From positions 1 to 35,183 of the forward strand of contig NZ_JVDT01000018.1 in assembly GCF_001076885.1 (NCBI RefSeq): 35,183 bases of DNA, read 5' to 3'. The DNA comes from Bacillus sp. 522_BSPC. GTDB taxonomy: Bacteria > Bacillota > Bacilli > Bacillales > Cytobacillaceae. Within the stretch, counting starts at the first letter, position 1, and every line of letters starts with the position of its first letter. The translations under genes were made by a program, and so were the position numbers. Shown one piece after another: positions 4,707 to 23,951 of this stretch. The notes beneath the pieces are model-generated. The model ran no database searches. It worked only from the letters and a program-made list of their open reading frames with translations, and was not told the DNA's origin.

Positions 4707-4966
4707 TATAAATAAATTATTAAGGCAATGACGGGGAGTAGTACAATGTACGTTGTTTCAAAGAGAGGAAATCATCTGCTGCGAGATTTCTATTCAACCC
4801 ATTGGAAGGTAGCCCTCGAGCTTCTTTTGCGAACGGTGTGCTTATTAGTAAAAGACGGACAGTATCCGATATCATCTTTGAAAGAGCCAGCACTTTTTGT
4901 GTTGGAAAAAAGGTGGTACCGCGAACAAACTCCATTCGTCCTTTTCAGACGAGTGGAGTTTTTTTA
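4707..4966 (+). promoter_or_regulatory. T-box riboswitch leader of valS
   Basis: A T-box leader senses uncharged tRNA and controls read-through of a terminator. The conserved T-box AAGGTGGTACCGCG lies at about 4909-4923 and pairs with the tRNA acceptor end in the family. The Stem I region (about 4725-4835) includes an AGTA motif near 4737. A terminator, ACTCCATTCGTC / GACGAGTGGAGT plus seven T's, spans 4929-4966. The downstream gene is valyl-tRNA synthetase, so tRNA-Val is the expected ligand; GTA at 4809-4811 (GGAAGGTAGCC) is a candidate specifier codon, but I could not fold Stem I to confirm it. Apparent small reading frames in this interval are leader RNA, not genes. Confidence 0.92.
4929..4966 (+). 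terminator. T-box-controlled terminator before valS
   Basis: 12-bp stem with an ACTCCA...TGGAGT base, a loop of about 7 bases and a T-tract. Its 5' arm overlaps the region used by the alternative antiterminator formed with the T-box sequence. Confidence 0.88.
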
Positions 4967-9291: not shown

Positions 9292-11007
9292 ATGGTAAAA
9301 CCAAGCTATAAAAAAATAATATGGGCAGTTTGGATATTCCTTCTCCCTTTTGGTCTATGGTTCTCTCATAATATCTATCCTCCGCAAATTCGGGGGAATG
9401 AATGGGAGATTCTTGCATTTCTAATATTTATGACAGTTGTGGCGAGTATGCCAATGATCATAAATGGTACGCCGGTATTTTTCTTACAGTGGGCGACATT
9501 ATCTGTTTTTCTAATATTCGGATTATTTTTTGAAATTATCCTCGTTCAAATTGCGTTAATAGCAGTATTATATCAAGCGAAGTTGGATAAAAAGACACTT
9601 TTTCGTTTGCCTATGAATTCAATCATGTTTTTTCTTGTCTCTTTTTTTAGTGGAATTATCTACTATAGTTTTGGAGGAAAACATGGATTCGATTTAGCTT
9701 TCAATTTCCATTTATTTGTCTTGATAAGTCTGTATCTTGTTTCCTATTTGTTGCTTAATACGTTGGGAATCTTTTTGATAGACCGTTTTATCTATAAAAG
9801 AAAAGAGCGTTTCATTAAAAAGGATTTAATATGGGAAATATTTACAACGATTATTACCTATCCAGTAGGTATTGCGTTATATATTATGTATCAATATGTT
9901 GGGCTTGCTGCATTACTTCTAATAGGTGTGCCTTTTATAAGCCTATCGCTCATTTTAAAGCTGTATCATTCAAGTCAAACTGCCAATGACTATTTAAGAA
10001 AAACAGCAGAAATTGGACATCAACTTTCTCAAAACTTGTATGTGAATGAAACCGTTGAGTTTTTTATTGAAAAGCTATATGAGTTATTTAAAGTTGATTT
10101 TGTGTTTATCCATCAAGTAAATGCTAATAATCAATTAGAAATGATTTCGCGTGTGGAGCAACAGGAAAAGCTACCAATTTTTTCTGAAGTGATGCATGAA
10201 AACGAAGGCATATGTGGTCGAGTGTTAGCCTCCCAAAAATCAAGTGTATTTCATTCTAAGCAAGATTGGCAGAATGTAAATAAGGGCTATATGCCTGAAG
10301 GAATTCAAAGTGTATTATGCATGCCGCTCATTAAAAATAAAAATGTGATTGGTGTATTATTATTGGGAAGTAAAAAAAAGAAGGCATTTGCCAATATAAA
10401 ATTAATGGTATTGGATCTTTTATGTACCCAATTTGCCATTGCGCTAGAAAATGCAAAGTACTTTGAGCAAACAAAGGAAAATAGTGAGAAATGTGCTTTA
10501 ACCAAGCTGTATAATTACCGCTATTTCGAAAAGCTATTAAGTGACCAGTTCAAGGAGCTTAATGAGGAGAAATTGGACAATCTTGCGCTGATTATGCTAG
10601 ATATTGATCATTTTAAATCGATAAATGATCAATATGGTCATCAGGCAGGAAATGAAATTTTAAAAGCTTTTGCTAAAAGAATTCAAAAGCTTATTGGTGA
10701 CCACGGAATTGTTGCTAGATACGGAGGAGAAGAGTTTGTGATTCTTCTGACCAATATTGCAAAAAAAGAAGCGCTTGATCTAGCTGAGTTTATCCGCAAG
10801 ATGATTGCATCTAGACCCTTTGTTATAAAACAAAATATAGACGATTCAAAAAAAATAAAAAAAGTAAATATTACAGCTTCTTTAGGTTTAGCTTATGCTC
10901 CTGAAGATGCCGATGAGTCGTTGGCATTGATTCGACATGCAGATAGAGCATTATACGTGGGAGCAAAAAGAGCAGGGCGTAACCGTGTTGGCAGTTATGT
11001 GAAATGA
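9292..11007 (+). CDS. Membrane-bound GAF-GGDEF diguanylate cyclase
   Basis: Encodes 571 residues. The N-terminal ~225 residues contain about six hydrophobic membrane segments, followed by a GAF domain (about 240-390) and a GGDEF domain (about 400-565). The active-site signature is ARYGGEEFVILL (GGEEF at 478-482) with 'LIMLDIDHFKSINDQYGHQAGNE' for metal and GTP binding, so it should make cyclic di-GMP from two GTP. The RxxD product-inhibition site normally five residues before GGDEF is absent (GDHG instead). No EAL or HD-GYP domain is present. It borders the type IV pilus locus, suggesting local second-messenger control of the pilus (inference). GGGGGAAGAG precedes the ATG. Confidence 0.93.
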   Translation: MVKPSYKKIIWAVWIFLLPFGLWFSHNIYPPQIRGNEWEILAFLIFMTVVASMPMIINGTPVFFLQWATLSVFLIFGLFFEIILVQIALIAVLYQAKLDKKTLFRLPMNSIMFFLVSFFSGIIYYSFGGKHGFDLAFNFHLFVLISLYLVSYLLLNTLGIFLIDRFIYKRKERFIKKDLIWEIFTTIITYPVGIALYIMYQYVGLAALLLIGVPFISLSLILKLYHSSQTANDYLRKTAEIGHQLSQNLYVNETVEFFIEKLYELFKVDFVFIHQVNANNQLEMISRVEQQEKLPIFSEVMHENEGICGRVLASQKSSVFHSKQDWQNVNKGYMPEGIQSVLCMPLIKNKNVIGVLLLGSKKKKAFANIKLMVLDLLCTQFAIALENAKYFEQTKENSEKCALTKLYNYRYFEKLLSDQFKELNEEKLDNLALIMLDIDHFKSINDQYGHQAGNEILKAFAKRIQKLIGDHGIVARYGGEEFVILLTNIAKKEALDLAEFIRKMIASRPFVIKQNIDDSKKIKKVNITASLGLAYAPEDADESLALIRHADRALYVGAKRAGRNRVGSYVK

Positions 11008-11025
11008 CTGGAATAAAAAAAGAAA

Positions 11026-11058
11026 AAGGAAGAATTTTAAATAATCTTCCTTTTTTCT
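11026..11058. terminator. Bidirectional terminator between the GGDEF gene and the minor pilin operon
   Basis: GGAAGA and TCTTCC pair around an AT-rich loop, with A-rich sequence on the left and T-rich on the right (AAAAAGGAAGA ... TCTTCCTTTTTTC). It lies between two convergent genes and can end transcripts from both strands. Confidence 0.8.
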
Positions 11059-11098
11059 TTACATACATATTTATTAAAATAGGGAAGATTCTCTGAAA

Positions 11099-12793
11099 TT
11101 AATAATTATAATCGACATTAATTTCACTATCCTCTACTCGTAAATCATTGGCAATCGCTGGTATATAAACAGTTTCTGGTGCAGTACTTCCTCCATCATT
11201 TTCATCCCCATCGCTAAATCCACTATTACAATTCGTTGCAAAATTAGTAGGATTCGTGTCAATTTTACTTCTATTGTTGTTATTTGTATCAGAAGATATT
11301 GCCGAAGCATATACTTTGCCATTTCCATTTAGATTAAAGTTTCCAGGGTTACTTATAGTGCCTCTTACGCATATTTTTGAATCATTGCCCATATTTATAT
11401 TGTTAATTGTCCCATCACCGCCAATATAAATAGCTGTTTTTGAGGGGTTATTTATAGTAGAAATGGTTGCATTCCCTAAAATACTAATTATACTATTATC
11501 TCCAGGGTTATTAATATGATTGATAGTTGCTGTTCCTTTTATTGAAAGAACTGTATTACTAAAGGAACTATTTATATTATCGATCTCTGCTGTGCCGCCA
11601 ATTGAAATAATGCTATCAGATGTATTATTCCAATTTTTGCTTTCAAAATTACCTTTTACTTCTAATTTGGTCTTTGTGAAGCTATTTCCATTTCTAAAGG
11701 TAGCTTTCCCACCAACATAAATAGAGGAGTCAATTGTACTGATGTTTTCGAAAGTTCCATCCTTTGCTACTTCAATAATTGAATTATTTAAGGAACTGTT
11801 TAAATTGTTAAATTTCGCCTCTCCACCTACATGAATTTTAATTGAAGAAATCCCATTTATATTACCAGTGGAATAGAAATCATTAGTTGTATATATTGTT
11901 GAATCAGTAAACTGATTAATATTGGACATTGTTAAAGTACCATTCGTTTTTAAAATTGCACTATTAGTAATGCTTGTATTGTTGGTTATCGTTGTGTTTT
12001 TGTTATATTGACACTTGCTTGAAAATTGATTTGGAAATTCACCCTCACTCCCGCAAGCTGTCAATACTCCAGGATCTTGAACATCGTTCCCAGTCAAACC
12101 TGTCTTTACAGTGGCTTGGTCATCTGAAGTGTCAGTGTTGCCCTCACTAGTACCATCTCCTGTTTCTGTACTAGCTTCTGTTTCCAATACAATAGGATCA
12201 AGTTTTATCGGAATGGTAAAGACCGATGATAATGTGATTTCTTTATCCCCATCGATTCCTTTACTATCAAATGTATAGGTAATCCCATCCTGATTACTAG
12301 TTTGCTTTATATTTGAAATAATAAAAGAGCTCCCCGCCGAACTATCAACAGAAACAGCTACGTTTTGAAAAAAGTTACGATTTATTGTTTCTAGTTCCGT
12401 TTTTATTTTCTCCATATATTGATTGGAAGCAATTGCAGTTAATTTATTAAAATAATCTACTTTATTGATTTCTGCTTCTGTAGTTTCCTTATTATTAGCT
12501 GTAATTTTTCCGAATGTGTCACTTATTTGTTTTGAAATCGATTGATTGATACTATCCTTAAAAGCACTATTTGCTTTTACTTCGCTACTTTTATTGTATA
12601 AGGCTGTTTTATAATAGGTGATTCCCATCTCGGCAATGGAAACAGCTTGTGCATTATCTTCTGTTATCGTAATCTGTTTAGAATTAGTAATCGATACACC
12701 AACAATGGAGATATAAAGAATACTAAAGACGGATATAAGGACAAGAATCAATATAAGTGTATTTCCTTTTTCGTTAAAATAACGCAATGACAA
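11099..12793 (-). CDS. PilX-like type IV pilin with a predicted beta-solenoid body (candidate tip adhesin)
   Basis: Encodes 564 residues. The N-terminus MSLRYFNEKG|NTLILILVLIS has a prepilin peptidase-like KG site followed by a hydrophobic helix without the usual Glu5, then 'AQAVSIAEMGITYYKTALYN', the pattern of PilX/GspK-type minor pilins. Residues about 60-200 are a globular/helical region and 203-240 a Ser/Thr/Asp-rich linker. Residues about 265-500 form about nine 18-21-residue repeats of the type 'I.VGG.ATF.N.N...', as in right-handed beta-solenoids. Four Cys (about 247, 261, 475, 522) could form disulfides outside the cell. It is the last gene of a three-pilin operon. Starts TTG at 12793 or the second TTG at 12787, both after AAAGGAGG. 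I know no named homologue. Confidence 0.8.
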   Translation of the reverse strand: MSLRYFNEKGNTLILILVLISVFSILYISIVGVSITNSKQITITEDNAQAVSIAEMGITYYKTALYNKSSEVKANSAFKDSINQSISKQISDTFGKITANNKETTEAEINKVDYFNKLTAIASNQYMEKIKTELETINRNFFQNVAVSVDSSAGSSFIISNIKQTSNQDGITYTFDSKGIDGDKEITLSSVFTIPIKLDPIVLETEASTETGDGTSEGNTDTSDDQATVKTGLTGNDVQDPGVLTACGSEGEFPNQFSSKCQYNKNTTITNNTSITNSAILKTNGTLTMSNINQFTDSTIYTTNDFYSTGNINGISSIKIHVGGEAKFNNLNSSLNNSIIEVAKDGTFENISTIDSSIYVGGKATFRNGNSFTKTKLEVKGNFESKNWNNTSDSIISIGGTAEIDNINSSFSNTVLSIKGTATINHINNPGDNSIISILGNATISTINNPSKTAIYIGGDGTINNINMGNDSKICVRGTISNPGNFNLNGNGKVYASAISSDTNNNNRSKIDTNPTNFATNCNSGFSDGDENDGGSTAPETVYIPAIANDLRVEDSEINVDYNY

Positions 12794-12805
12794 ATTCCCT
12801 CCTTT

Positions 12806-13261
12806 CTATTTTAATCGTGATAAGGTTGCGGTTGTTTGATAGGTTTGGTTTTCCTTATCTTTGCTCGTAATTTTAATGGTTAGGATGACATCCTCTTTGA
12901 GAGGATTAACAGTAAATGCATTAGGAATATAGGTATTATTTGTTCCATTTTTATTCATCAATTCATATCGGAATTTTTTATTCTGAAAGGTAATCTTTTG
13001 CTTCCCATCCACCGTAATATACGATGCATTTGGATTTTGATCAAATGTAATAGAATACGAATCAGAGGTTTGATGTATTTTTGTCATACTTGAAACCATA
13101 TAGTTCGCTTCTTGTTGTAATAAGGTTTTATCATTGACTACTTTCGAGAAGTGAATTCCTTGAAAAAAGAACTGATAGATAAGGACTAGCACAATCGAAC
13201 CGAGTGCAATAGAAACTAGCAATTCAATTAAAGTAAATCCTCTTTCGTTTTGAATCGTCAT
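12806..13261 (-). CDS. Type IV prepilin-like minor pilin (PilW/PulJ-like)
   Basis: Encodes 151 residues. The class III prepilin signal 'NERG|FTLIELLVSIALGSIVLVLIYQFF' has the cleavage Gly, the +5 Glu and a 20-residue hydrophobic helix, so PilD should cleave and methylate it before assembly. The remainder is a small beta-rich domain (KQKITFQNKKFRYELMN, VILTIKITSK). The position between a PilV/PulI-like and a PilX/GspK-like gene matches the minor pilin order V-W-X that builds the tip complex in other type IV systems. AAGGGAG precedes the ATG; the gap to the gene before is 14 bp. Confidence 0.85.
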   Translation of the reverse strand: MTIQNERGFTLIELLVSIALGSIVLVLIYQFFFQGIHFSKVVNDKTLLQQEANYMVSSMTKIHQTSDSYSITFDQNPNASYITVDGKQKITFQNKKFRYELMNKNGTNNTYIPNAFTVNPLKEDVILTIKITSKDKENQTYQTTATLSRLK

Positions 13262-13275
13262 CTTTTTTCTCCCTT

Positions 13276-13746
13276 TTATTTTTTCGTAATATATCCGTAT
13301 ATATTGCTGTTTAATTTATCTTGTTCATCAAAAACGTCAATGCGTATTTTATAAAGCGTATTTGCTCCCTTTAATGTTTCCTCCCGATAATATAGATAAA
13401 GATGAATAAAATAGTTATTTTCTTTAAAGATTAATTCTATAGCATCTGAATTTCTGTTTATATTTGTTAATAATGGCAAATTGTTTGCATTTATTGAAGC
13501 TGATGGATTATCTGTTAGATTAATCAATTGTTTATATAAAGTACTTTCACTATTTTGTGCTTGGACTAACCAACTCTTTGCTAGTGTAACACTTGTTAAC
13601 CTCTCATCTGTCTTCTTATTAAAGGAAGATACTTGAGGGAAAAAAGTGAGAAAGGACGTAATGAGAATACTTAACAAAACAATCGAAACTAAAATTTCTA
13701 TTAATGAAATGCCTTTATCATTTTGTATGAAACGCTTAAACGGCAT
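13276..13746 (-). CDS. Type IV prepilin-like minor pilin (PilV/PulI-like)
   Basis: Encodes 156 residues with prepilin signal 'NDKG|ISLIEILVSIVLLSILITSFLTFF' (Glu5 present). The short mature domain contains beta-strand-like segments (FIHLYLYYREE, YKIRIDVFDEQ). It is the first gene of the minus-strand minor pilin operon. A strong GGAGTGGAGG ribosome binding site precedes the ATG. It is predicted to be part of a tip-initiating minor pilin complex and processed by the PilD encoded at 20716. Confidence 0.85.
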   Translation of the reverse strand: MPFKRFIQNDKGISLIEILVSIVLLSILITSFLTFFPQVSSFNKKTDERLTSVTLAKSWLVQAQNSESTLYKQLINLTDNPSASINANNLPLLTNINRNSDAIELIFKENNYFIHLYLYYREETLKGANTLYKIRIDVFDEQDKLNSNIYGYITKK

Positions 13747-13844
13747 GCTTTTGCCTCCACTCCTAAATGGAAAATTTAAAAGAGAAAGAATAAGAAAAAT
13801 ATTATGTGAAACTATTGACCTATTCTTTTAAAATAATTGATTCT

Positions 13845-13850
13845 ATTATA
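13845..13850 (-). promoter_or_regulatory. Perfect -10 box (TATAAT) for the minor pilin operon
   Basis: The minus strand carries TATAAT here, about 100 bp before the first minor pilin start. No good -35 (TTGACA) lies 17 bp upstream, so the promoter may need an activator or be a chance match in AT-rich DNA. Confidence 0.35.
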
Positions 13851-13952
13851 CAATACATAGGATAAGAAAAAACGAAAAGTTGTAGGACTAAATGCATTGG
13901 AAAATAAATAAACTCTAGTTTGTTCTTACTATTTAGAATAGTGGTGATTAAA

Positions 13953-14723
13953 ATGCAAGTATTATTAATCTCTATCGTTTGTTTACTAATTATTACAATA
14001 ATTTTTGTTGTTTTTCCTTCTAGTATGACAATCAAGGGAAGATTTGTAGTGGTTGTGGTTGCTTTTGTGCTATCAAATATCGGCTTGGCTGTTCAATATT
14101 TATATGAGAATTATATGATTAGTTTAGGTAGTCTGTTGCTTTTAGTTTTGATGCTACCTTTATTAATGCAAAAAAGCGCTCGTTTTTTCTTTAAAGAAGA
14201 AATACATAGTGAATACATTACAACGTATACGGCAAAAGACATGAATAAGCAGAATATAGAATTAGAAGAAGAGCTGTTAATTATGGATAAAGGGAAGCCT
14301 GCATTAAAAAAAGAGGGGAAAATAACATCTAACACAATAGTGGAAGAAGTAGAACAATCCGAACGAAAACCTATTAAGGAAGAAGAATTTCCGCCCATTA
14401 AAGTGGACAACAACTTTAGTGTAATGGTTTCTTCAGAGGAAACAGAGAATGTAAATAAGCAAGAAGAGGAAAAGGATTGGGTCTATGCTACATTAAATAC
14501 TACCGAGGCTCATCCAAAAGAGGATTATTGGAAAAATGATAATGTAATGGTCAGGGAAAACTCGATTGAAGCTTTTTTAAAAGAATTAAATGCTAATAAA
14601 GATAATGATAAAGAGGAAGAACAACTAGAGGAAATAGAAGAAAAGCCAAACAGACGATATTTAGAGAGGTTAGAAAAAATTAGAATTTTAGACAACAGTA
14701 ATTTACCAAAAGATAAGGATTAA
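13953..14723 (+). CDS. Acidic membrane protein of unknown function at the head of the pilus operon
   Basis: Encodes about 256 residues. I do not recognise a family. Three hydrophobic segments (about residues 2-20, 30-48, 54-75) are followed by a roughly 175-residue charged tail rich in Glu, Lys and Asn, probably cytoplasmic. I start at ATG 13953 because GTGGTGATT, complementary to the 16S rRNA end, is well spaced before it; the reading frame extends to a TTG at 13920 without a site. It is divergent from the minor pilin operon and 75 bp before the VanW/G5 gene. Its conserved position in other bacilli would be needed to link it to pilus function. Confidence 0.7.
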   Translation: MQVLLISIVCLLIITIIFVVFPSSMTIKGRFVVVVVAFVLSNIGLAVQYLYENYMISLGSLLLLVLMLPLLMQKSARFFFKEEIHSEYITTYTAKDMNKQNIELEEELLIMDKGKPALKKEGKITSNTIVEEVEQSERKPIKEEEFPPIKVDNNFSVMVSSEETENVNKQEEEKDWVYATLNTTEAHPKEDYWKNDNVMVRENSIEAFLKELNANKDNDKEEEQLEEIEEKPNRRYLERLEKIRILDNSNLPKDKD

Positions 14724-14798
14724 GTATTTGATCTGAAAAATTTAAGTGCAAACAAAAGGAGTCTCTAAAGCCGTTTTTTTAGAAAGGTAGAATACAGA

Positions 14799-16130
14799 AT
14801 GGATAAAAAAACTTTCACTTTATTTATTAGGCTTTTTATAGCAACATTTTTCCTTTTTGGAGGCACCAGTTTAGGTGTTTACGCCTTTCAGAAGGCAGAT
14901 AAAGAAGAGCTTTACCCCATAAATACAAGTGTAGCTGGGATAAGCATTGGAGGATTAACAGAATTAGAGGCAAAAAATATGCTTGAAAATCATCTTATTG
15001 GTTGGAAAGCCAATGCTATATATGAGTTTCAATATAAAGAAAAAACGGTTCAGATAAGTAATGATATATTTGTCTTTGATGTAGAAGAAACACTAAAGAA
15101 TATAACGGAAAACAGTGCAAATGATTTTGTTGTAAATGTAAGGGAAGAAGTTTTACAAACGGAATTGGAACAGTATAATTCGTTTTCTATGGAAGATATC
15201 GATATTGATCTTTTCAAATCAGCATTATTAGAAGCTGCATCCATTCTTCAAGTAGATAAGAAAATAGCTGTAGAAGAATACTTTGCCTCCTATGTTTCCG
15301 GCAAAGATTTGTTAAATACCGTCGAAATGACAGTGCCTGATCAAATAGAAGAATTGGAATCCGTTATTCCAACTATTAAAGAAATCACTATATTACCAAA
15401 AACAACTTTTTCTTTATTAGGATTATTAGAGGATGTAAATCAGAAAGGCGCAAAGGATGAAACGGTAAGTATACTAGCAACAGGTATTTATCAATTAGTT
15501 CTTCAAACCAATTTTGACATAAGAGAGCGTACAATAAGCAAGGAGCTTCCTGATTATGTAGATGTTGGTTATGAAGCGAAAGCAAGCTTTCGTAGTCAAC
15601 TAGATTTACGCTTTACTAATCCAAATGAACATGCTTATCTTATCGCTCTTAAGGTAGAGGAGAATCAATTAATCCTTCAATTAAAGGGGCAAGAATTTCC
15701 GAACCGTTATGAGATTGTTATAGAGGAGAAGGAAGAATATGAACCAAAAACAATTGTCCAATTTGATTCTTTGCTTGAGGGCGATCAGGTAAAGGTTAAA
15801 CAGGAAGGGAAAAATGGTATCTCTGTTGGTGTCATCAAAGAAGTACTGGATAAAAACGGAGATCAGGTAAAAAGAGAATCAATCGCTACGGACTATTATC
15901 CACCTATTTATAGGGTAGAAGTTCGAGGATTGCCAAATAACAAGGACATAGAGCAAACAGATAGTATGGAAGATGGCGAAGAGGCACCAATAGAGGAAGA
16001 TTTAAATGATCCTGCAATAGAAGAATCCACAATGGACGAAGAGAATAATCCAAATCAAGAAATCGATCAGGAAAAGGAAGATGATGATCTAAACGATTCG
16101 ATAGATGATGACCAAATTATTGAAAAATAG
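14799..16130 (+). CDS. VanW/G5 domain cell-surface protein
   Basis: Encodes 443 residues. One N-terminal membrane segment (about 8-30) is followed by 'INTSVAGISIGGLTELEAKNML', the start of a YoaR/PGBD4-like peptidoglycan-binding region, then a VanW-like domain (about 195-310; 'ILPKTTFSLLGLLEDV', 'LDLRFTNPNEHAYLIALKV') and a G5 domain (about 320-400; 'ILDK..'-type strands, 'EYEPKTIVQFDSLLEGDQVKVKQEGKNGI'). A 45-residue Asp/Glu tail ends it. G5 domains bind sugars or peptidoglycan-type glycans in other proteins. In this operon it might open or anchor the wall for the pilus (inference). AAAGGTAG precedes the ATG. Confidence 0.82.
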   Translation: MDKKTFTLFIRLFIATFFLFGGTSLGVYAFQKADKEELYPINTSVAGISIGGLTELEAKNMLENHLIGWKANAIYEFQYKEKTVQISNDIFVFDVEETLKNITENSANDFVVNVREEVLQTELEQYNSFSMEDIDIDLFKSALLEAASILQVDKKIAVEEYFASYVSGKDLLNTVEMTVPDQIEELESVIPTIKEITILPKTTFSLLGLLEDVNQKGAKDETVSILATGIYQLVLQTNFDIRERTISKELPDYVDVGYEAKASFRSQLDLRFTNPNEHAYLIALKVEENQLILQLKGQEFPNRYEIVIEEKEEYEPKTIVQFDSLLEGDQVKVKQEGKNGISVGVIKEVLDKNGDQVKRESIATDYYPPIYRVEVRGLPNNKDIEQTDSMEDGEEAPIEEDLNDPAIEESTMDEENNPNQEIDQEKEDDDLNDSIDDDQIIEK

Positions 16131-16199
16131 CCAAGTAACATCCATTAAGGAAAATATCGTTTTTCATACATAATACCAAATAGGTAAAGGAAGATGATA

Positions 16200-17855
16200 A
16201 TGAAGAATACTCGTAAACGACTAGGGGATTTATTAATAGAGGCTAATCTGATAACACAAGAGCAATTAGACGAGACATTGGCTAGAAAAAGTTCTAATCA
16301 AAAGCTTGGAGATGCGTTACTTAAAGAGGGATTAATCACGGAACAGCAGCTTATAGAAGTGCTGGAATTTCAGCTAGGAATTCCTCATATTAGTTTATAT
16401 CGGTATCCTTTTGAGCAAAATCTTTTTTCACTCGTACCAAAGGAAACAGCCAAAAGAAATATTCTTATTCCTTTAAAAATTGAGGGAGATAAACTTTTTG
16501 TTGCGATGGCGGATCCTATGGATTATTTTGCCATTGACGACCTTCGCCTAACGACTGGATTTCAAATTGAGCCGGCAATAGCAACAAGAGATGATATTAT
16601 TCGGGCCATTAATAAATACTATGATGTGGATGATGAGTTTAAAGAATTGCTTTTCCCTGTGGAACAAGAGGAAGAAGTTGATTTAGATGTTGTTCAAGAT
16701 TCTCCCATTATTAGGCTAGTCAATCAGCTAATAACAAATGCTATTCATGCAAAAGCAAGTGATATTCATATTGATCCCCATGAAACAAAGGTAACGATTC
16801 GTTATCGGATTGATGGAGTTCTTCGCACAGAAAGAATTTTGCCAAAGCATATGCAAAGTGTTTTGATTGCCCGGATAAAAATATTGGCTAATCTGGATAT
16901 TACCGAATATCGTCTACCACAGGACGGCAGAATTAAGTTTAATCTGGAATTGCACCCAGTAGATTTGCGCATTTCCTCCATCCCGACTGTATATGGGGAA
17001 AAAATTGTAATGCGGATACTTGACTTAGGGAGTGCTTTAAATGACATTACAAAGCTTGGATTTCATCCCTACAATCTCCAATTATTTAATAAAATGCTTA
17101 AGAAGCCGAATGGGATTGTGTTGATAACAGGTCCAACAGGATCAGGTAAATCATCCACTTTATATGCAGCATTAAATCAGTTGAATAATGAGGAAGTCAA
17201 TATTTTAACAATTGAAGATCCAGTAGAATTTCAATTGGAAGGGATTAATCAAATTCAAGTAAATGTAAATACAGGCATGGACTTTGCAGTTGGTTTGCGT
17301 TCTATTTTAAGGCAGGATCCAAATATTATCATGGTCGGAGAAATTCGTGATAAGGATACAGTAGAAGTGGCTATTCGCGCTTCCTTAACTGGTCATTTAG
17401 TGCTCAGTACTCTTCATACGAATGATTCTATAGGAACGATTACCCGCTTAATTGATATGGGAGTAGAGCCATTCTTAGTAGCATCTTCTTTAAATGGAAT
17501 CGTTGCACAGCGATTAGTAAGAAAAGTATGTCGAGATTGCAAAAGAGAAGAAGCGGCTACCAAAAGAGAAATAGAGATTTTTGCAAGAAGAGGTATGTCT
17601 ATTGAGCATATTGTTCGCGGTAAAGGATGTTCTTCTTGCAATATGACAGGTTATCGCGGCCGAATCGCGATTCATGAGGTCCTAGTTATGAATGAAGAGA
17701 TAAGAAAATTGATCATGAACGGAGAATCTTTTCTAAAGGTAAGAGAGCAAGCAGAAAAGGATAAAACCGTGTTTTTAATTGATGATGGGTTATTAAAAGT
17801 GAAACAAGGGATTACAACAACGGAAGAAGTACTAAGAGTCGTTCTTCCTGAATAG
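16200..17855 (+). CDS. pilB: Type IV pilus extension ATPase PilB (GspE/PilB family)
   Basis: Encodes about 551 residues, the hexameric motor that powers pilus extension. The N-terminus (7-58) carries two MshEN-like 24-residue motifs (RLGDLLIEANLITQ..., KLGDALLKEGLITE...) that in MshE-type ATPases bind cyclic di-GMP. The ATPase core has Walker A GPTGSGKSS (311-319), an Asp box around TIEDPVEF, Walker B IIMVGEIRD (376-384), a His box TGHLVLSTLHT, and a zinc Cys tetrad CRDC/CSSC (444, 447, 477, 480). ATG 16200 is preferred to ATG 16194 because AAAGGAAG is 7-8 bp before it. The gene is 11 bp from pilT. Confidence 0.95.
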   Translation: MKNTRKRLGDLLIEANLITQEQLDETLARKSSNQKLGDALLKEGLITEQQLIEVLEFQLGIPHISLYRYPFEQNLFSLVPKETAKRNILIPLKIEGDKLFVAMADPMDYFAIDDLRLTTGFQIEPAIATRDDIIRAINKYYDVDDEFKELLFPVEQEEEVDLDVVQDSPIIRLVNQLITNAIHAKASDIHIDPHETKVTIRYRIDGVLRTERILPKHMQSVLIARIKILANLDITEYRLPQDGRIKFNLELHPVDLRISSIPTVYGEKIVMRILDLGSALNDITKLGFHPYNLQLFNKMLKKPNGIVLITGPTGSGKSSTLYAALNQLNNEEVNILTIEDPVEFQLEGINQIQVNVNTGMDFAVGLRSILRQDPNIIMVGEIRDKDTVEVAIRASLTGHLVLSTLHTNDSIGTITRLIDMGVEPFLVASSLNGIVAQRLVRKVCRDCKREEAATKREIEIFARRGMSIEHIVRGKGCSSCNMTGYRGRIAIHEVLVMNEEIRKLIMNGESFLKVREQAEKDKTVFLIDDGLLKVKQGITTTEEVLRVVLPE

Positions 17856-17866
17856 AGGGGAATATC

Positions 17867-18919
17867 TTGAAAGAGAAATTAGATGAGATTTTGAAGACTG
17901 CTTATGTAAATCGAGCTTCTGATGTTCATTTAACGGTAGGGATACCGCCTGTTATCCGCATAAATGGAGAATTGAAAAGGATTGGTGAAAAAAGCTTGGT
18001 GAAAGCTGAAACAGAAGGAATGGCAAAGGAAATTGCTCCTGAAACGTTATGGGAAACTTTTTTAGAAAAAGGGGAATTAGATTTCTCCTATGAAATAAAG
18101 GGTCTTTCTCGCTTCAGAGTCAATATCTTTAAACAGCGTGGACAAGTATCCATTGCCTTGAGAATTGTGCCAACAGCCATTCCGACGATTGAACAGCTTG
18201 GTATGCCAGCTATACTACGTAAAATAGCGGAAAAACAACAAGGTCTTGTACTTGTAACAGGTCCTACTGGTAGCGGGAAATCGACCACTTTAGCAGCAAT
18301 GATTCGGTATTTAAATGAGACATCCCATAAGCATATTATTACTCTTGAAGATCCAATTGAATATTATCATTCACATGGAATGTCGATTATTGACCAACGA
18401 GAGGTTGGCTTTGATACAAATAATTTTGCAAATGGGCTGCGTGCTGCATTAAGGCAAGATCCAGATGTAATCTTAGTAGGGGAAATGCGAGATTTAGAAA
18501 CGATTCAAACTGCAATTACTGCAGCGGAAACGGGTCATCTCGTATTGGGAACATTACACACCTCTGGAGCACCAGCAACAATAAATAGAATAATTGATGT
18601 GTTTCCACCAGAACAACAGCAACAAATTAGAATTCAATTAGCTTCTGTGTTAGTTTCGGTTGTGTCTCAGCGCCTTTTCCCGACAGCCAATAAAAGAGGC
18701 AGAGTTGTTGCTTTGGAGATTCTCCTAAACAATTCAGCAGTGGCTAATTTGATTCGTAATGAGAAGATACATCAAATCATGAATATTATGCAAACATCCA
18801 AATCACAAGGAATGGTAACATTAGAAAATAGCATTAAAGAGCTTGTTCAATTTGGGCATATTCATCAAGATTTAGCTGCGCAATATTTACAGGAGTTGTC
18901 AATTAATGGCTCGATTTAA
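17867..18919 (+). CDS. pilT: Type IV pilus retraction ATPase PilT
   Basis: Encodes 350 residues, the usual PilT length. Landmarks are the PAS-like N-terminal 'RASDVHLTVGIPPVIRINGEL', Walker A GPTGSGKST (132-140), Walker B VILVGEMRD (201-209), His box TGHLVLGTLHT (222-232) and the PilT C-terminal signature 'AVANLIRNEKIHQIMNIMQ' related to AIRNLIRE. PilT depolymerises the pilus and drives twitching. Its presence separates this locus from ComG-type competence pseudopili, which have only one ATPase. TTG start after AGAGGGGAAT; the end overlaps pilC by 14 bp. Confidence 0.96.
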   Translation: MKEKLDEILKTAYVNRASDVHLTVGIPPVIRINGELKRIGEKSLVKAETEGMAKEIAPETLWETFLEKGELDFSYEIKGLSRFRVNIFKQRGQVSIALRIVPTAIPTIEQLGMPAILRKIAEKQQGLVLVTGPTGSGKSTTLAAMIRYLNETSHKHIITLEDPIEYYHSHGMSIIDQREVGFDTNNFANGLRAALRQDPDVILVGEMRDLETIQTAITAAETGHLVLGTLHTSGAPATINRIIDVFPPEQQQQIRIQLASVLVSVVSQRLFPTANKRGRVVALEILLNNSAVANLIRNEKIHQIMNIMQTSKSQGMVTLENSIKELVQFGHIHQDLAAQYLQELSINGSI

Positions 18920-20117
18920 GTATACCGGGAGAACGATACAAGGAAAACGAGAGGGAAGCATTAATGCATCATCAAAGCGTGAGGCATTATTTTCACTAAG
19001 GGAACAAGGTATTCGAGTTACAGAAATAATGGAAGTCAAAGAATCATTCTTTACAAAGGATATTGTCATTGGCAATCCTGTGAAATTGCAGGATATGGTC
19101 ATTTATTTACGACAGTTTGCAACGCTTTTGTCTGCAGGAATTTCCATTATCGATTCCACAAGAATACTTGCAGAGCAAACCTCAAGTAAAGTACTACGAA
19201 AGGTTTTAAAAGCAGTGGAAGAGGATTTAAGGGAAGGAAATCCTCTGTCTAATGCTGCAGAAAAGCACAGGAGAGTATTTTCGCCAATGTTCATCAATAT
19301 GGTTCGAGCTGGAGAAGCGAGTGGTAATATGGATGAAACACTTGAACGATTAGCTATCCATTACGAAAGACAGCATTTTACAAAACAAAAGATTATTTCT
19401 GCACTTGCTTATCCGGCAGCTGTTGGATTACTTTCTATGTTTGTTGTCGTCTTTTTGTTAATTTATGTTGTGCCAATTTTTGTTGGAATGTTTGCTAGTT
19501 TAGGCGGAAAATTGCCGTTCATTACCCAATTTGTGCTAGATGCAAGTGCTTTTGTCCAATCTTACTGGTGGTTAATTGCGTTTGTGGTGATACTAATTAC
19601 GATTGTGTTTATACTGCTTCGAAATAATGAAACGTCTAAATATTATTTGGATTATGGGGTATTAAGGATGCCGGTTATTGGGAAGCTACTACAGAAGGCA
19701 GAACTAGCAAAAATGACACGTACACTAAGCTCGTTATTTTCTAGTTCTGTCCCAATATTGCAAGCATTAACCATTGTTGAATCAGTAGTAGAAAATAAAG
19801 TAATTGCAGAAGTGGTGCATAAATCCCATGCTGCATTGGAAAATGGTCAGTCGCTGATTGAGCCTATGAAAAAGCACTGGGCCTTTCCCCCTTTGATTAC
19901 CCAAATGATTGCCATTGGGGAGGAGACAGGCTCCTTAGACCTCATGCTTGGGAAAGTTGCTGACTTTTATGAAAAAGAAGTGGAAGTTAGTACAGATCGG
20001 CTAAAAGCCATTTTGGAACCTTTATTAATTGTTCTTTTAGCTGGCCTTGTTGGGGTTATCGTTTCCGCGCTGATGATACCAATGTTTGAAATTTTTAACC
20101 AAGTGGATAATTACTAA
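18906..20117 (+). CDS. pilC: Type IV pilus platform protein PilC (GspF family)
   Basis: Encodes 403 residues of the inner-membrane assembly platform that PilB and PilT act on. Two T2SSF domains are visible (about 65-190 and 265-390), each starting with the 'FLRQFATLLSAGISI' / 'MTRTLSSLFSSSVPIL' type helix, and three membrane segments: about 170-195, 220-240 and 375-397. 'FSPMFINMVRAGEASGNMDETLERLA' is a family hallmark, repeated as 'FPPLITQMIAIGEETGSLDLML'. It starts inside the end of pilT, suggesting translational coupling. Confidence 0.96.
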   Translation: MARFKYTGRTIQGKREGSINASSKREALFSLREQGIRVTEIMEVKESFFTKDIVIGNPVKLQDMVIYLRQFATLLSAGISIIDSTRILAEQTSSKVLRKVLKAVEEDLREGNPLSNAAEKHRRVFSPMFINMVRAGEASGNMDETLERLAIHYERQHFTKQKIISALAYPAAVGLLSMFVVVFLLIYVVPIFVGMFASLGGKLPFITQFVLDASAFVQSYWWLIAFVVILITIVFILLRNNETSKYYLDYGVLRMPVIGKLLQKAELAKMTRTLSSLFSSSVPILQALTIVESVVENKVIAEVVHKSHAALENGQSLIEPMKKHWAFPPLITQMIAIGEETGSLDLMLGKVADFYEKEVEVSTDRLKAILEPLLIVLLAGLVGVIVSALMIPMFEIFNQVDNY

Positions 20118-20173
20118 GAAAAATATGTAATATTCCAAAAAAATAATTCTTCCTTTTAAAAAGAGAATCTGCT

Positions 20174-20205
20174 AAAGTACTACTTAGAATAGTAAAAAAG
20201 TACTA
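20174..20205 (+). repeat. Direct repeat of AAAGTACTA before pilA
   Basis: AAAGTACTA occurs at 20174-20182 and 20197-20205 (23 bp apart), each holding the palindrome AGTACT, and the second touches the AGGGAGG ribosome binding site of pilA. The pair could be a protein site about two helix turns apart or form an mRNA hairpin. No convincing promoter is visible in this 103 bp gap. Confidence 0.35.
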
Positions 20206-20220
20206 GGGAGGCAATAAAAA

Positions 20221-20700
20221 ATGAAAAAAATAATAAATCGTATAAAAAATCAAAAAGGTTTAACGTTAATTGAGCTATTAGCAGTTGTCGTTATTCTTGG
20301 AATTATTGCAGCAATCGCTGTTCCGAGTGTTGGGAAAATAATCGACAACACAAAGAAAGATGCTCATGTGGCAAACGCACAGCAAATGATTAATTCTGCT
20401 AAATTGGCTGTATCGGCTGATACTGGGTTGTTGCCGAGTTCGGGTTCGAAGATTATCACCATGGCTTATTTAGAGGAACAGGGTTATTTAGATGTAGTGA
20501 AAGATCCAGATGGTGGAGAATATGAGAAAGGCACTTCTGAAACTGATGATACTGGTTCTTATGTGAAAATTACAAAAGGTACGGAAGGTAAATACAGTTA
20601 TACTGTTAAATTAGTTGGTAGTGAACGACAAATAGACGAAACAGCAGAAGCAGAATTAGCTAGGGATGAAGTTGAACCTATAACTGAAGCCAATCAATAA
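20221..20700 (+). CDS. pilA: Major type IV pilin (PilA/ComGC-like)
   Basis: Encodes 159 residues. The class III signal ends 'NQKG|LTLIELLAVVVILGIIAAIAVPSV', with Glu5 and Pro22 of classical pilins, followed by 'GKIIDNTKKDAHVANAQQM' of the helical stalk. The globular domain is short, with no cysteines, and its end is acidic. Its position directly after pilC and before pilD, its strong AGGGAGG ribosome binding site and the separate 103 bp leader suggest it is the abundant subunit. PilD is predicted to remove the leader and methylate the new N-terminus. Confidence 0.92.
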   Translation: MKKIINRIKNQKGLTLIELLAVVVILGIIAAIAVPSVGKIIDNTKKDAHVANAQQMINSAKLAVSADTGLLPSSGSKIITMAYLEEQGYLDVVKDPDGGEYEKGTSETDDTGSYVKITKGTEGKYSYTVKLVGSERQIDETAEAELARDEVEPITEANQ

Positions 20701-20715
20701 GCTCGGTAAATAATA

Positions 20716-21462
20716 ATGCTATTCCTAATCTTCCTATACGGACTCCTATTCGGCTCCTTCTTTAACGTAGTCGGTCTAAGAGTCCCTGTCAATCAGTCGA
20801 TTGTTGCCCCGCGGTCAGCCTGTCCAAAATGTGGACATACTTTAAGCTGGTATGAATTAATACCTGTATTATCTTATATTTTTCAAAAGGGGAAATGCGG
20901 TCAGTGTAAGACAGCAATTTCCCCAATTTACCCGATTGTCGAATTGATAACCGGTCTTTTGTTTATTTTGGCACCTGTTAAATTAGGATGGTCAACTGAA
21001 CTTTTTGTTGCCTGGACACTTATCTCCTTGCTTATGATTATATTGGTGTCCGATCTTGCTTATATGATCATTCCAGATAAGGTATTGATTGTATTTTCCA
21101 TCCTCCTTATTATAGAAAAAATATTCATTCCCCAAAATTCTTGGGCTTTCTCTATTTCAGGGGCAGCTGTTGGCTTTTTCTTATTGTTATTCCTTGCAGT
21201 TATTAGTAAAGGTGGCATGGGCGGCGGAGATATCAAACTGTTTGCAGTCATTGGCTTTGTCCTTGGTCCGAAATTAGTTTTACTAGCTTTTTTCCTTGCT
21301 TCCTTATTTGGTGCTTTAATTGGTATAATTGGAATGTTATTAAAGCAATTTAAGAAGAGGGAGCCAATTCCGTTTGGTCCATATATTGTTTTAGGCACGC
21401 TTATCGCCTATTTTTATGGATTGGAGTTACTAGATTTTTACTTTCAACTTCTTAACATATAA
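20716..21462 (+). CDS. pilD: Prepilin peptidase PilD (TFPP, A24 family)
   Basis: Encodes 248 residues of a polytopic membrane aspartic peptidase that cleaves and N-methylates type IV prepilins. The N-terminal methylase part has the two zinc CxxC pairs (36/39 and 61/64; CPKCGHTLSWYELIPVLSYI). The catalytic Asp residues are expected in 'SDLAYMIIPD' (about 113) and in 'GMGGGDIKLF' (about 172). In B. subtilis comC, the homologous peptidase, lies at this place on the chromosome between folC and spoIIB. It may therefore serve both this pilus and the Com pseudopilus. The ribosome binding site is weak and the gene follows pilA by 15 bp. Confidence 0.95.
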   Translation: MLFLIFLYGLLFGSFFNVVGLRVPVNQSIVAPRSACPKCGHTLSWYELIPVLSYIFQKGKCGQCKTAISPIYPIVELITGLLFILAPVKLGWSTELFVAWTLISLLMIILVSDLAYMIIPDKVLIVFSILLIIEKIFIPQNSWAFSISGAAVGFFLLLFLAVISKGGMGGGDIKLFAVIGFVLGPKLVLLAFFLASLFGALIGIIGMLLKQFKKREPIPFGPYIVLGTLIAYFYGLELLDFYFQLLNI

Positions 21463-21473
21463 GGAGATATCAT

Positions 21474-22460
21474 ATGGGGTTGTTTCGAAACAAAAGAACT
21501 GTCCAGCTCATTTTTAATGATCATTCCATTCGATATATGGAAATGAAACAAATTAATCCTCCTCAACCAATCAAATGGGGGGAAAGGATTTTGGCAGAAG
21601 GTATCATTAGAAATGGAAAAGTGGTCAATAAAGAAAGCTTGCAGTTAATTTTAGAAGAATGTGCGGAGACTTGGAAAATAAAGAAAAGGGACATTCAGAT
21701 GGTCGTTCCTGATGCGCTAATTATTATTCGGAAAATATCCATTCCAGCAGATATAAAAGAAGATGAATTAAAAGAGTATTTATACTTAGAAATTGGCACA
21801 TCCATCCATCTCCCATTTGAAGAGCCGGTCTTTGATACGGTTGTTCTAAAAGAAGAAGACGAAAAAAAGGAAGTTTTATTCATTGCTGCACAAGCAGAAT
21901 TAGTTCAGGAATATGTGGATGCTCTAACAGAAGCAAAGCTATATCCAGTTGCTGCAGATATTTCCTCGTTAGCAGCCTTCCGTATATATGAACGACTTTA
22001 TACAGCTGCAGAAGAGGAGAGACTGTTATTTGTACATATGGATTTAGAAAATGTGAATATAACTATTTTTGAACATGGATATCCGATTTTTGCCCACTTT
22101 TTGCCGCTTACCTTTATACGCGAGGATTGGGAAATTCGAGTAAATCGGTCACAGCAATCAGAGCTTTTCTTTCAAGGAGATATCGAGGAGCTCATGATTG
22201 AATACGATAATATTTTTCGAGAAGTAAACCGATTAATGGATTTTTATCGTTATTCTATTCATCAAGGAAGAGAACAATTGATGAAAATTATTTTGACGGG
22301 TGATCACCCTATGCTACCATCCATGAAAGAAGAATTATCTACTCGTTTTGAGCTGCCTATTATTATGCCAGAAGTAGATAGCCTATTAACTGGATTTAAG
22401 CGATCTTTGCCAAGTGGCTTTCACCTTGTTTTAGGATTAGCTTTAAAAGAGGTGAAATAG
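21474..22460 (+). CDS. pilM: PilM, actin-like pilus assembly protein
   Basis: Encodes 328 residues of the cytoplasmic actin/FtsA-like protein that binds the N-terminus of PilN and links the alignment complex to the motor. Recognised from 'RTVQLIFNDHSIRYMEMK' (N-terminal phosphate-loop strand), 'VVPDALIIIRKISIPADIKEDELKEYLYLEIG' and 'LLFVHMDLENVNITIFEHGYPIFAH', all standard PilM patterns. AAGGAGATAT precedes the ATG 11 bp after pilD, and the stop directly abuts the pilN start. Confidence 0.92.
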   Translation: MGLFRNKRTVQLIFNDHSIRYMEMKQINPPQPIKWGERILAEGIIRNGKVVNKESLQLILEECAETWKIKKRDIQMVVPDALIIIRKISIPADIKEDELKEYLYLEIGTSIHLPFEEPVFDTVVLKEEDEKKEVLFIAAQAELVQEYVDALTEAKLYPVAADISSLAAFRIYERLYTAAEEERLLFVHMDLENVNITIFEHGYPIFAHFLPLTFIREDWEIRVNRSQQSELFFQGDIEELMIEYDNIFREVNRLMDFYRYSIHQGREQLMKIILTGDHPMLPSMKEELSTRFELPIIMPEVDSLLTGFKRSLPSGFHLVLGLALKEVK

Positions 22461-23090
22461 ATGTTAGTGGATATCAATTTACTCCCAAAAAGAGAAAAAA
22501 GAAGTAAAAAATCCGTTTATATTCTTTTTATTTTTGCTGGGGTGGCACTGCTTAGTATAATTGTGATGCTGTTTATTGGCCAATCCATTCAGAAAAAGAA
22601 TGATGAATTGGCAAAACAAGTAAATACAATGAAGGAACAAGTGGAATCATCTCAAACGCTGCTTACTACCTATGAAAATTCAAATGCTGCAGCAGAATTA
22701 GAAAAAGCAGTCATTTGGGCAGAGGACTATCCTTTAAAAACCGTTCCAGTAATAAGAGAGTTAACTTCCTACCTACCAGAGCGGGGGTTTATTCTATCTT
22801 TTCTTTATAATGAAGATGGAACAATTCAATTAGAGGCTCAATTTGATACAACTAGAGAAGCTGCCTATTATTTAAAGAGATTAATGGATTCAGCGTGGAT
22901 TACTGATGTTACACTCTCTAAACTATCAACAACGACCATTACTACTTCTGTTGATGAAGGAGCTCTTTCTACAGAGCAAGATGTACAAAGATACATTGGT
23001 TCTTTTCAAATCTTCTTAAATAAAGAAACGATTAAAGAGGAGGAGCAAATGGATCAGCAAGAAAAGGAACAAGGAGATTCTAATTCATGA
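22461..23090 (+). CDS. pilN: PilN, pilus alignment complex membrane protein
   Basis: Encodes 209 residues. The 'VDINLLPKREKR' start is the conserved PilN motif that docks on PilM, followed by one membrane segment (about 21-43), a coiled coil (about 48-75) and an external PilN fold (GFILSFLYNEDGTIQLEAQFD). The last 20 residues are Glu/Gln-rich. It overlaps pilO by four bases (ATGA), so the two are probably coupled and form a heterodimer. Confidence 0.92.
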   Translation: MLVDINLLPKREKRSKKSVYILFIFAGVALLSIIVMLFIGQSIQKKNDELAKQVNTMKEQVESSQTLLTTYENSNAAAELEKAVIWAEDYPLKTVPVIRELTSYLPERGFILSFLYNEDGTIQLEAQFDTTREAAYYLKRLMDSAWITDVTLSKLSTTTITTSVDEGALSTEQDVQRYIGSFQIFLNKETIKEEEQMDQQEKEQGDSNS

Positions 23091-23833
23091 ACCTTGATAG
23101 GCATAGATTGTTTACCATAAGTAGTATGCTGATTATATTCTGTTTTTTAGCAGGAATGTATTTCTTTTATTTACAGCCTAAGATTGTTGAAAATAATAAA
23201 AAAAATGATCAGATTGAGACAGAGCAACAGCTATTATCAGTGATAGAAACAAATATTCAAGAGAAGAAAGAATCTGGAGAAAAAAATACATTTGAATTGC
23301 AAAAAAGTGTTCCGATAAAACCGCTAACAGATCAACTGTTAATCGATATCGAAAAAGCAGAGCTACTTTCAGAAACGACGATACAGAATATGGTATTTAG
23401 TGATGGTGAGGTAGAAGTTGATTCTACGGATGATATCGGGATATTACAACAACAATTTGATAAAAGCACAAGCCTAGAAACCGAGGAAGAGACGAAAGAG
23501 GAGAATTCCGAGGAAACGGAGCTTTCATCTATAGAAATGCCTTCTGGGATGAAAGAGATGACTGCTACCCTTGAAATACAAGCACAGGATTACTTTGGAT
23601 TGGAAAAGTTTATATCTGAAATGGAGAATAATGAGCGGATTGTATTAGTAAGAAATATAAATTTCTCTGGTGAAGAAGAAAAAACGACTGTTTCAGATGA
23701 AGAAAATCAGTTAGTAACATTTTATGTTACTTTTTCCGTCTTCTATATGCCGGAACTAGTAGATTTACAAGAAAGCTTGCCTAAACTAGATGTTCCGTCA
23801 CCTGGCAATAAAATAAATCCTTTTGCTAACTAA
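23087..23833 (+). CDS. pilO: PilO-like pilus alignment complex protein
   Basis: Encodes 248 residues. One membrane segment (about 8-27) is followed by a short coiled coil (to about 65), an external region and 'ATLEIQAQDYFGLEKFISEMENNERIVLVRNINFSG', the ferredoxin-like PilO signature. A Glu-rich insert (about 127-146) is unusual compared with PilO of Gram-negatives. No PilP or PilQ follows, as expected for a one-membrane cell. It is the last gene of the pilus operon, before a strong terminator. Confidence 0.87.
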   Translation: MNLDRHRLFTISSMLIIFCFLAGMYFFYLQPKIVENNKKNDQIETEQQLLSVIETNIQEKKESGEKNTFELQKSVPIKPLTDQLLIDIEKAELLSETTIQNMVFSDGEVEVDSTDDIGILQQQFDKSTSLETEEETKEENSEETELSSIEMPSGMKEMTATLEIQAQDYFGLEKFISEMENNERIVLVRNINFSGEEEKTTVSDEENQLVTFYVTFSVFYMPELVDLQESLPKLDVPSPGNKINPFAN

Positions 23834-23870
23834 TGGCGAATAATTAAATAATTTGACGAAATCATTCTAT

Positions 23871-23903
23871 AACAAGACGACAAAAGTCTTGTTATTTTTT
23901 TTT
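23871..23903 (+). terminator. Rho-independent terminator ending the pilus operon
   Basis: AACAAGAC (23871-23878) and GTCTTGTT (23886-23893) form a perfect 8-bp stem followed by an almost uninterrupted T-run. It separates pilO from spoIIB. Confidence 0.9.
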
Positions 23904-23951
23904 GCTTATATGATAGGATAAACAAAATAAATGAAAATGGGGGTAGGACGA

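Follow-up and report, generated by a model that had tools for sequence, protein, structure and literature searches.

Why does the prepilin peptidase gene comC stand by itself in Bacillus subtilis, apart from the comG operon? The question is raised by a 35,183-nucleotide stretch of Bacillus sp. 522_BSPC (contig NZ_JVDT01000018.1, hereafter the window), in which a type IVa pilus (pil) locus lies between folC and a spoIIB-like gene. We consider it highly probable that this locus encodes a retractable type IVa pilus, that its peptidase PilD is shared with the ComG pilus, and that a solitary comC is the relic that remains after loss of the pil genes. Several lines of evidence favor a relic origin, which a sequence-only reading of the window had offered as one of two alternatives: comC-only sites hold ordered fragments of pil genes, 12 families contain both states of the site, the comC-only peptidases do not form one clade, and folC and pilT are linked across the class. 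Such an origin would explain why the comC of B. subtilis stands alone.

A pil operon has been known in Bacillus since 2011. Imam et al. (2011; PMC3244431) described such operons for Bacillus sp. NRRL B-14911, Geobacillus, and Exiguobacterium, also covered Clostridium, and gave the Bacillus operon as possibly the first reported. The Gram-positive type IVa loci of that paper resemble ours in having operons of pilB, pilC, pilD, pilM, and pilN, some with pilT, and each Bacillales genome examined there has one com operon, with pilD/comC not always within it; the word folC is absent from its main text, in which we found no link between the site and comC. The pil cluster described for Paenibacillus thiaminolyticus (PMC9765702) shares with ours a pilB with an MshEN domain, pilT, pilC, a pilin, pilD, and stator genes, but is placed there on a predicted mobile element, whereas the locus studied here occupies a conserved chromosomal site. 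In a review on the pili of monoderms (PMC6916266), the main text nowhere mentions the word Bacillus. We found hardly any work on pili for the order containing Bacillus, and no paper that treats comC as a relic in the literature searched, which most subscription journals lay beyond.

Composition and Predicted Function of the Locus

Open reading frames (ORFs) and domain searches delimit a complete type IVa pilus locus at 9292-23833, in which every gene of the pil region is an ORF without an internal stop. The flanking order is spoVID-ysxE-valS-folC on the 5' side and spoIIB-like-maf-radC-mreB on the 3' side, some of these names being presumed from gene order. All genes named by the sequence-only reading are present, as is the contrast that it drew with B. 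subtilis: the order is folC-comC-spoIIB in B. mojavensis (L185) and B. glycinifermentans (L170), which we take to be members of the B. subtilis group and use as stand-ins for the B. subtilis site.

The locus has PilB, PilT, PilC, PilD, PilM/N/O, and both major and minor pilins, the set by which the single-membrane form of a type IVa pilus is recognized in sequence. PilB exceeds the Pfam cut-offs for T2SSE and MshEN and passes NF053729 (59 bits, cut-off 38), with its best match, TIGR02538, at 620 bits below the equivalog cut-off of 676. PilT scores 478 bits against a TIGR01420 cut-off of 319 and matches a solved PilT in the PDB at E 5e-105. PilC exceeds the Pfam T2SSF cut-off, with all NCBIfam models below theirs and GspF the highest among them; PilM reaches 70 bits in Pfam (cut-off 27) and 88 bits with TIGR01175, below 133. 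The two catalytic aspartates of PilD, D113 and D172, are invariant across 14 aligned rows. PilN and PilO are the weakest assignments, and we regard them as settled by family profiles built from their relatives, which match the Myxococcus xanthus PilN (E 6e-7) and PilO (E 5e-9). PilO had no PilO match in Pfam; the model of its structure (mean predicted local distance difference test, pLDDT, of 79) has as its best solved fold matches the PilO structures 3jc8 and 2rjz.

Class III signals were matched in three pilins, PilA and two of the minor pilins, and the fourth pilin lacks the glutamate at position +5. This large minor pilin has no Pfam match and has relatives in 72 of 90 intact loci. Its model (mean pLDDT 71) begins with the helix and sheet of a pilin and continues into a beta-solenoid. 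The fold search with this pilin returned nothing significant, the best match being a bacterial beta-helical antifreeze protein (E 0.06). The ORFs of its relatives range from 84 to 769 amino acids, some of them shortened by stretch ends, a spread that is as expected of an exchangeable tip module. The VanW/G5 protein recurs in at least 77 of the 90 intact loci, some of which are incomplete at the stretch ends. G5 is a putative wall-sugar-binding domain, and this protein may possibly act in the passage of the pilus through the cell wall or in its anchoring there.

From these genes we infer that the locus provides a single-membrane bacterium with a retractable type IVa pilus. PilD would cleave the pilins of the locus and would also mature those of ComG, and PilB together with PilC and PilM/N/O would build the fiber. 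Extension by PilB is probably controlled by cyclic diguanylate (c-di-GMP) via MshEN, perhaps fed by the GGDEF enzyme of the locus; such control is stated for clostridial PilB with MshEN (PMC9765702). The minor pilins, including the large beta-solenoid one, may form the fiber tip, which for the large pilin is a guess from its model, and PilT would retract the fiber. The sequence-only reading had held that PilT plus PilMNO makes this a retractable pilus rather than a Com pseudopilus. PilT and PilMNO indeed fit a type IVa pilus in sequence, but PilT by itself leaves a role with Com possible.

That the locus is decaying or silent, with no pili made in the source organism, seems unlikely to us: loss of pil loci is frequent in the order, but all ORFs here are open, PilD and PilT retain their catalytic motifs, and PilB shares 76% identity with its B. 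methanolicus counterpart. It is more improbable still that the locus is an elaborated Com (DNA-uptake) system or a type II-like secretion system instead of a pilus for motility or adhesion. The profiles of PilB, PilC, and pilins do overlap those of GspE, GspF, and ComG, other orders keep PilT where the sole platform protein found is a short one that most resembles ComGB or GspF, and a nonsignificant match to Thermus ComZ (E 0.21) comes from the family of the large minor pilin. However, the locus scores lie below the curated cut-offs for ComGA (267 against 300), ComGB (141/240), ComGC (22/75), GspE (593/630), and GspF (381/424), as well as for GspG; no secretin domain was found among the locus proteins, which were the scope of that search; and a comG operon lies elsewhere in the genome. 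Furthermore, PilT and PilMNO are present as in the Firmicutes type IVa pili described in the text of PMC6916266.

A Single Prepilin Peptidase and a Separate comG Operon

The source assembly (5.14 Mb, 291 contigs, completeness 100) contains a single prepilin peptidase match, which is the pilD of the locus. A PilB query returned three matches, namely pilB, pilT, and one on another contig (C93), and the six N_methyl pilins of the assembly are divided equally between the pil locus and C93. This contig carries a seven-gene comG operon, whose genes were named first by order and then scored against curated models: ComGA, GB, GC, GD, and GF exceed the cut-offs, ComGE reaches 32 bits against 49, and the last ORF, in the comGG position, has no match. 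Because there is one peptidase match and a separate comG operon, PilD presumably serves both pili, and the ComG pilins would most simply be matured by the PilD of the pilus locus. A second comC, which the sequence-only reading had named as evidence that would speak against a relic, did not turn up in the genome search. The ComG pilus and ComC of B. subtilis resemble the present case in that a prepilin peptidase gene lies in the same syntenic place and comG is also found in the source genome; the Com system of B. subtilis is without PilT, PilM, PilN, and PilO, whereas the pil locus of the source genome has all four.

The folC Site across the Order

To compare the site among relatives we surveyed 150 genomes of the order, drawn evenly from 47 GTDB families and including the source genome, with thresholds of E up to 1e-6 for PilD/ComC and up to 1e-70 for PilT. 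PilD/ComC was found in 149, FolC in 148, and PilT in 110. In 89 genomes pilT and pilD are linked to each other with pilT by folC, a count that takes in one genome (G132) whose PilD failed a test for a downstream position (88 without it). In 29 genomes pilD/comC lies 0.8-7.8 kb from folC and PilT is lacking; we call these sites comC-only. A further 19 have pilT by pilD but unlinked to folC, partly owing to contig breaks, and the remainder comprise 10 with PilD elsewhere and no PilT, 2 with PilT apart from PilD, and 1 with no PilD match. When 40 of the linked loci (L081-L120) were examined, pilB, pilT, pilC, pilA, pilD, pilM, pilN, and pilO were all found in 39, the stretch of the fortieth (L101) being incomplete. 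The linked arrangement occurs in 32 families and the comC-only one in 19; at least eight genera hold both. Among 80 titled loci, 50 have all eight pil genes and 12 have folC and pilD without pilB, pilT, pilM, pilN, or pilO. The comparison of intervals proposed with the sequence-only reading thus yields both states, and the folC-linked pil locus is common in the order and no rarity.

The loci vary in several details. In 18 loci (L096, L099, L112-L114, L116, L117, L119, L120, L125, L126, L133, L139, L141, L145, L146, L150, and L169), but not in the window, the interval from pilO to spoIIB contains an additional ORF with a match to the pilA profile. In loci of Psychrobacillus, Planococcus, Rummeliibacillus, Bhargavaea, and Lysinibacillus (L159, L160, L164, L166, L174, L175, L178, and L186), pilD follows pilO instead of lying between pilA and pilM. 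The order at the folC site is rearranged to pilA-pilD-minor pilins-pilMNO in L101 (genome G089) and in Cytobacillus sp. NCCP-133 (L199), where pilB-pilT-pilC follows the rearranged block. A record titled Pseudomonas sp. ISL-84 (L137) shows a Bacillus-type folC-GGDEF-comC-spoIIB locus and is probably misnamed.

Remnants at comC-Only Sites

We examined the gene order of the 29 comC-only sites and searched by translation the gaps of 45 comC-only or partial loci. Four sites keep pil pieces in the ancestral gene order. G098 retains GGDEF, 72 C-terminal residues of the large minor pilin, 40 N-terminal residues of a second minor pilin, comC, and approximately 60% of pilM; in G071 the end of pilA directly precedes comC and the end of pilO directly follows it; G101 has comC, a pilM split over two ORFs, pilN, and the end of pilO; and in Cytobacillus horneckiae (L121) comC is preceded by part of pilC and by the end of pilA. 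Additionally, G025 still carries vanW, pilM, pilN, and pilO at the site, with no pilB, pilT, or pilC there, and in Parageobacillus caldoxylosilyticus (L133) pilT is missing, as are the 5' half of pilB and the greater part of pilC, which may be an assembly fault. A pil piece other than GGDEF was found at 7 of the 29 order-survey sites (one of them, L053, weak at E 6e-5) and at 1 of the 12 titled comC-only sites, and GGDEF is retained at 11 of the 29.

The comparison of G098 with the intact locus of Pseudalkalibacillus hwajinpoensis reveals the extent of such a loss. Identity is 92.8% in the pilD block, with pilD unbroken, and 91.8% in a second long block that starts at the pilO end and extends past mreB, with 84% in a preceding 272-column piece; approximately 7.9 kb are gone before pilD and 1.7 kb after it. 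In two relic-intact pairs the pairwise ratio of nonsynonymous to synonymous substitution (dN/dS) of PilD is 0.17 and 0.09, a mixed value, the intact lineage being part of each pair; the pilM remnant of G098, too, has a ratio of 0.30. Close species pairs with and without the locus are thus now at hand for experiments.

Phylogeny of PilD and ComC

A PilD/ComC tree of 96 rows was built by a quick method. This enlarged tree includes 26 of the 80 titled loci, chosen by hand, and leaves out 11 of the 81 rows of a first tree because folC and spoIIB were both absent from their stretch; L111 and L118, which are among the 11, are intact loci with an incomplete stretch. L101 was scored as intact, given that its stretch ended before pilB/pilT/pilC and PilT lies approximately 8 kb past pilD. 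The comC-only and intact states then require 29 changes, 27 without the partial loci L044 and L133, and 24 without these two and six long-branch rows. A single comC-only clade is rejected by the approximately unbiased (AU) test, with p 2e-50 when L101 is intact and p 4e-6 when it is counted as comC-only.

The comC-only rows are often placed with intact PilDs of their own family, and relics stand beside intact relatives in G098 with P. hwajinpoensis (support 94), G071 with Anaerobacillus alkalilacustris (99), and Lederbergia with G081 (98). B. mojavensis groups with two genomes (G112 and G140) of family f44 (99), a family that also has a linked intact locus (G082). The sequence-only reading had named a grouping of pilD with distant phyla as evidence that would tell against a relic; PilD groups with Bacillales PilDs, in trees that contained no distant phyla. 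Denise et al. (2019; PMC6668835) are recorded in that paper as setting a peptidase tree aside as poorly supported. We base the polarity of the change, loss rather than gain, on the remnants and the class-wide linkage and not on the tree.

Age and Origin of the Linkage

A class-level sample of 151 genomes, 140 of them outside the order, was searched for PilT (E up to 1e-60). PilT was found in 88 of the 140, and in 58 of these, from 21 families, it lies on the folC strand 1.4-17.8 kb downstream. Ten class loci with PilT by folC were inspected: all eight pil genes are present in four (G393, G324, G317, and G298), G310 is without a pilN match, G306 and G318 are incomplete where the stretch or contig ends, and only pilT, with or without pilD, is found in G433, G311, and G347. 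In the phylum outside the class, PilT was found in 114 genomes, 109 of which also have FolC, and none of the 109 has the pair within 25 kb, the closest being approximately 40 kb apart. In family f136 (genomes of 2.0-2.7 Mb), five genomes have the order valS-folC-comC-radC.

Thus, the folC-pil linkage is spread across the class and seems older than the order. The ancestors of the order, and those of the class, probably had a pil locus between folC and spoIIB/maf, and type IVa pili are the usual condition in the order and probably its ancestral one. The comparison of related genomes indicates that loss of such loci happened many times. The lineages concerned would have lost the pilus by deletions while pilD stayed as a lone comC of the kind seen in the B. 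subtilis group, and pilD would have been retained because ComG depends on it. The solitary comC of B. subtilis most likely represents the one surviving gene of a type IV pilus locus that has disappeared.

The other alternative of the sequence-only reading was growth of the locus around comC. We hold it to be very improbable that pil genes gathered around, or entered beside, a solitary comC that was there before them, repeatedly, by horizontal transfer into the folC-spoIIB gap: type IV pilus loci can move, as the P. thiaminolyticus operon suggests (PMC9765702), and pilT-pilD is unlinked to folC in 19 of 150 genomes, partly because folC is on another contig, but shortened pil genes remain in the ancestral order at some comC-only sites, 32 families of the order share the linkage, largely complete loci stand at the same site in other orders, and PilD often follows family lines.

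Several points weigh against a relic origin or limit its reach. The translated search found no pil fragment beyond GGDEF at 22 of the 29 order-survey sites and 11 of the 12 titled ones, and none is left at the B. subtilis-group site. The branch of B. subtilis-group ComC is long and its placement unsure, support is weak for many inner branches of the PilD tree, the AU test gave two widely different p values, and counts on the tree cannot separate gain from loss. Outside the order, PilT is far from folC or on another contig in 24 of the 88 class genomes, and 6 have no listed FolC; contig breaks may hide linkage in any sample. PilC lies beside PilT in only 5 of 20 tested among the 58 folC-linked class genomes, so that linkage of PilT does not equal an intact locus. 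A ComK box, searched as paired AT-boxes in the 300 bases upstream with a presumed consensus and spacings, yielded no clear signal: it occurred with at most two mismatches at 2 of 43 comC-only loci and at none of 89 in-operon pilD genes; a shuffle p of up to 0.05 was obtained at 4 of the 43 and 1 of the 89, and no box was found upstream of the source comGA (p 0.73). Working pili are a prediction from the genes. Given the long branch and the lack of a fragment, a relic origin in the B. subtilis group itself rests on synteny and the wider pattern.

PilT without a Recognizable PilC

Among the 20 class genomes tested with PilT by folC, five others have PilC elsewhere in the genome (E 1e-73 to 1e-80), and the remaining ten, spanning four GTDB families, give only a weak platform match (E 1e-11 to 1e-31), with pilT by pilD downstream of folC. 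The loci of these ten are L211, L215, L223, L225, L227, L229, L231, L233, L235, and L236. Their short platform proteins score best with ComGB in seven cases and slightly higher with GspF in three, all below curated cut-offs. Two of the ten genomes (G395 and G415) also keep pilM, pilN, and pilO at the site. The C-terminal motif of PilT is present in strict form in 2 of 10 by pattern, and looser forms were seen by eye in three more.

This suggests that PilT may work with the Com pilus in genomes without a recognizable PilC. In parts of the class the ComG pilus might then have taken over PilT besides PilD, with PilT as the Com retraction motor, and the source organism might use its PilT for both pili. 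We regard this takeover as doubtful, the more so because the ComGB cut-off is beyond all ten platform proteins and three favor GspF. The solitary PilT-PilD sites make retraction of the Com pilus testable.

Features of the Window

The features are listed in table 1. The hairpin after pilO is one of seven terminator-like sites in the scan, against 7.6 in shuffled sequences, and promoter-like sites were likewise not enriched (55 against 62.5).

Table 1. Features of the pil locus and its two anchors, with positions in the window
Feature	Position	Strand	Evidence and remarks
folC	7807..9108	+	Mur ligase domains; upstream anchor and anchor of the survey
Membrane-GAF-GGDEF protein, predicted diguanylate cyclase	9292..11007	+	Pfam GGDEF (E 9e-42) and GAF; RYGGEEF by eye
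Large minor pilin, 564 aa	11099..12793	-	Pilin-like N-terminus without Glu at +5; predicted C-terminal beta-solenoid
Minor pilin	12806..13261	-	N_methyl (E 2.6e-9); GFTLIE motif
Minor pilin	13276..13746	-	N_methyl (E 8.7e-6); GISLIE motif
Membrane protein with acidic tail	13920..14723	+	Unmatched in Pfam and NCBIfam; 27 of 90 intact loci have relatives
VanW/G5 protein	14799..16130	+	VanW and G5 domains; recurrent accessory of pil loci
pilB, predicted extension ATPase with c-di-GMP-binding MshEN domain	16194..17855	+	T2SSE and MshEN
pilT, predicted retraction ATPase	17867..18919	+	TIGR01420; Walker A, VGEMRD, and ANLIR motifs
pilC, platform protein	18906..20117	+	T2SSF (E 3e-62)
pilA, major pilin	20221..20700	+	N_methyl (E 3e-8); GLTLIE motif
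pilD/comC, prepilin peptidase	20716..21462	+	A24_N and Peptidase_A24
pilM	21474..22460	+	PilM_2 (E 3e-19)
pilN	22461..23090	+	INLLP start; Pfam just below cut-off; family profile match
pilO	23087..23833	+	Family profile match; PilO fold matches
Intrinsic-terminator-like hairpin and T run, closing the pil genes	23869..23895	+	Consensus match
spoIIB-like SPOR protein	23931..25049	+	SPOR match below cut-off; precedes maf-radC-mreB; downstream anchor

No c-di-GMP riboswitch reached the Rfam gathering score in the window, whose sole Rfam match is an ordinary T-box leader 5' of valS (4719-4946). Directly before spoVID, at 48-1773 on the minus strand, are genes for an NMT1/THI5-like substrate-binding protein and a polysaccharide deacetylase-like protein.

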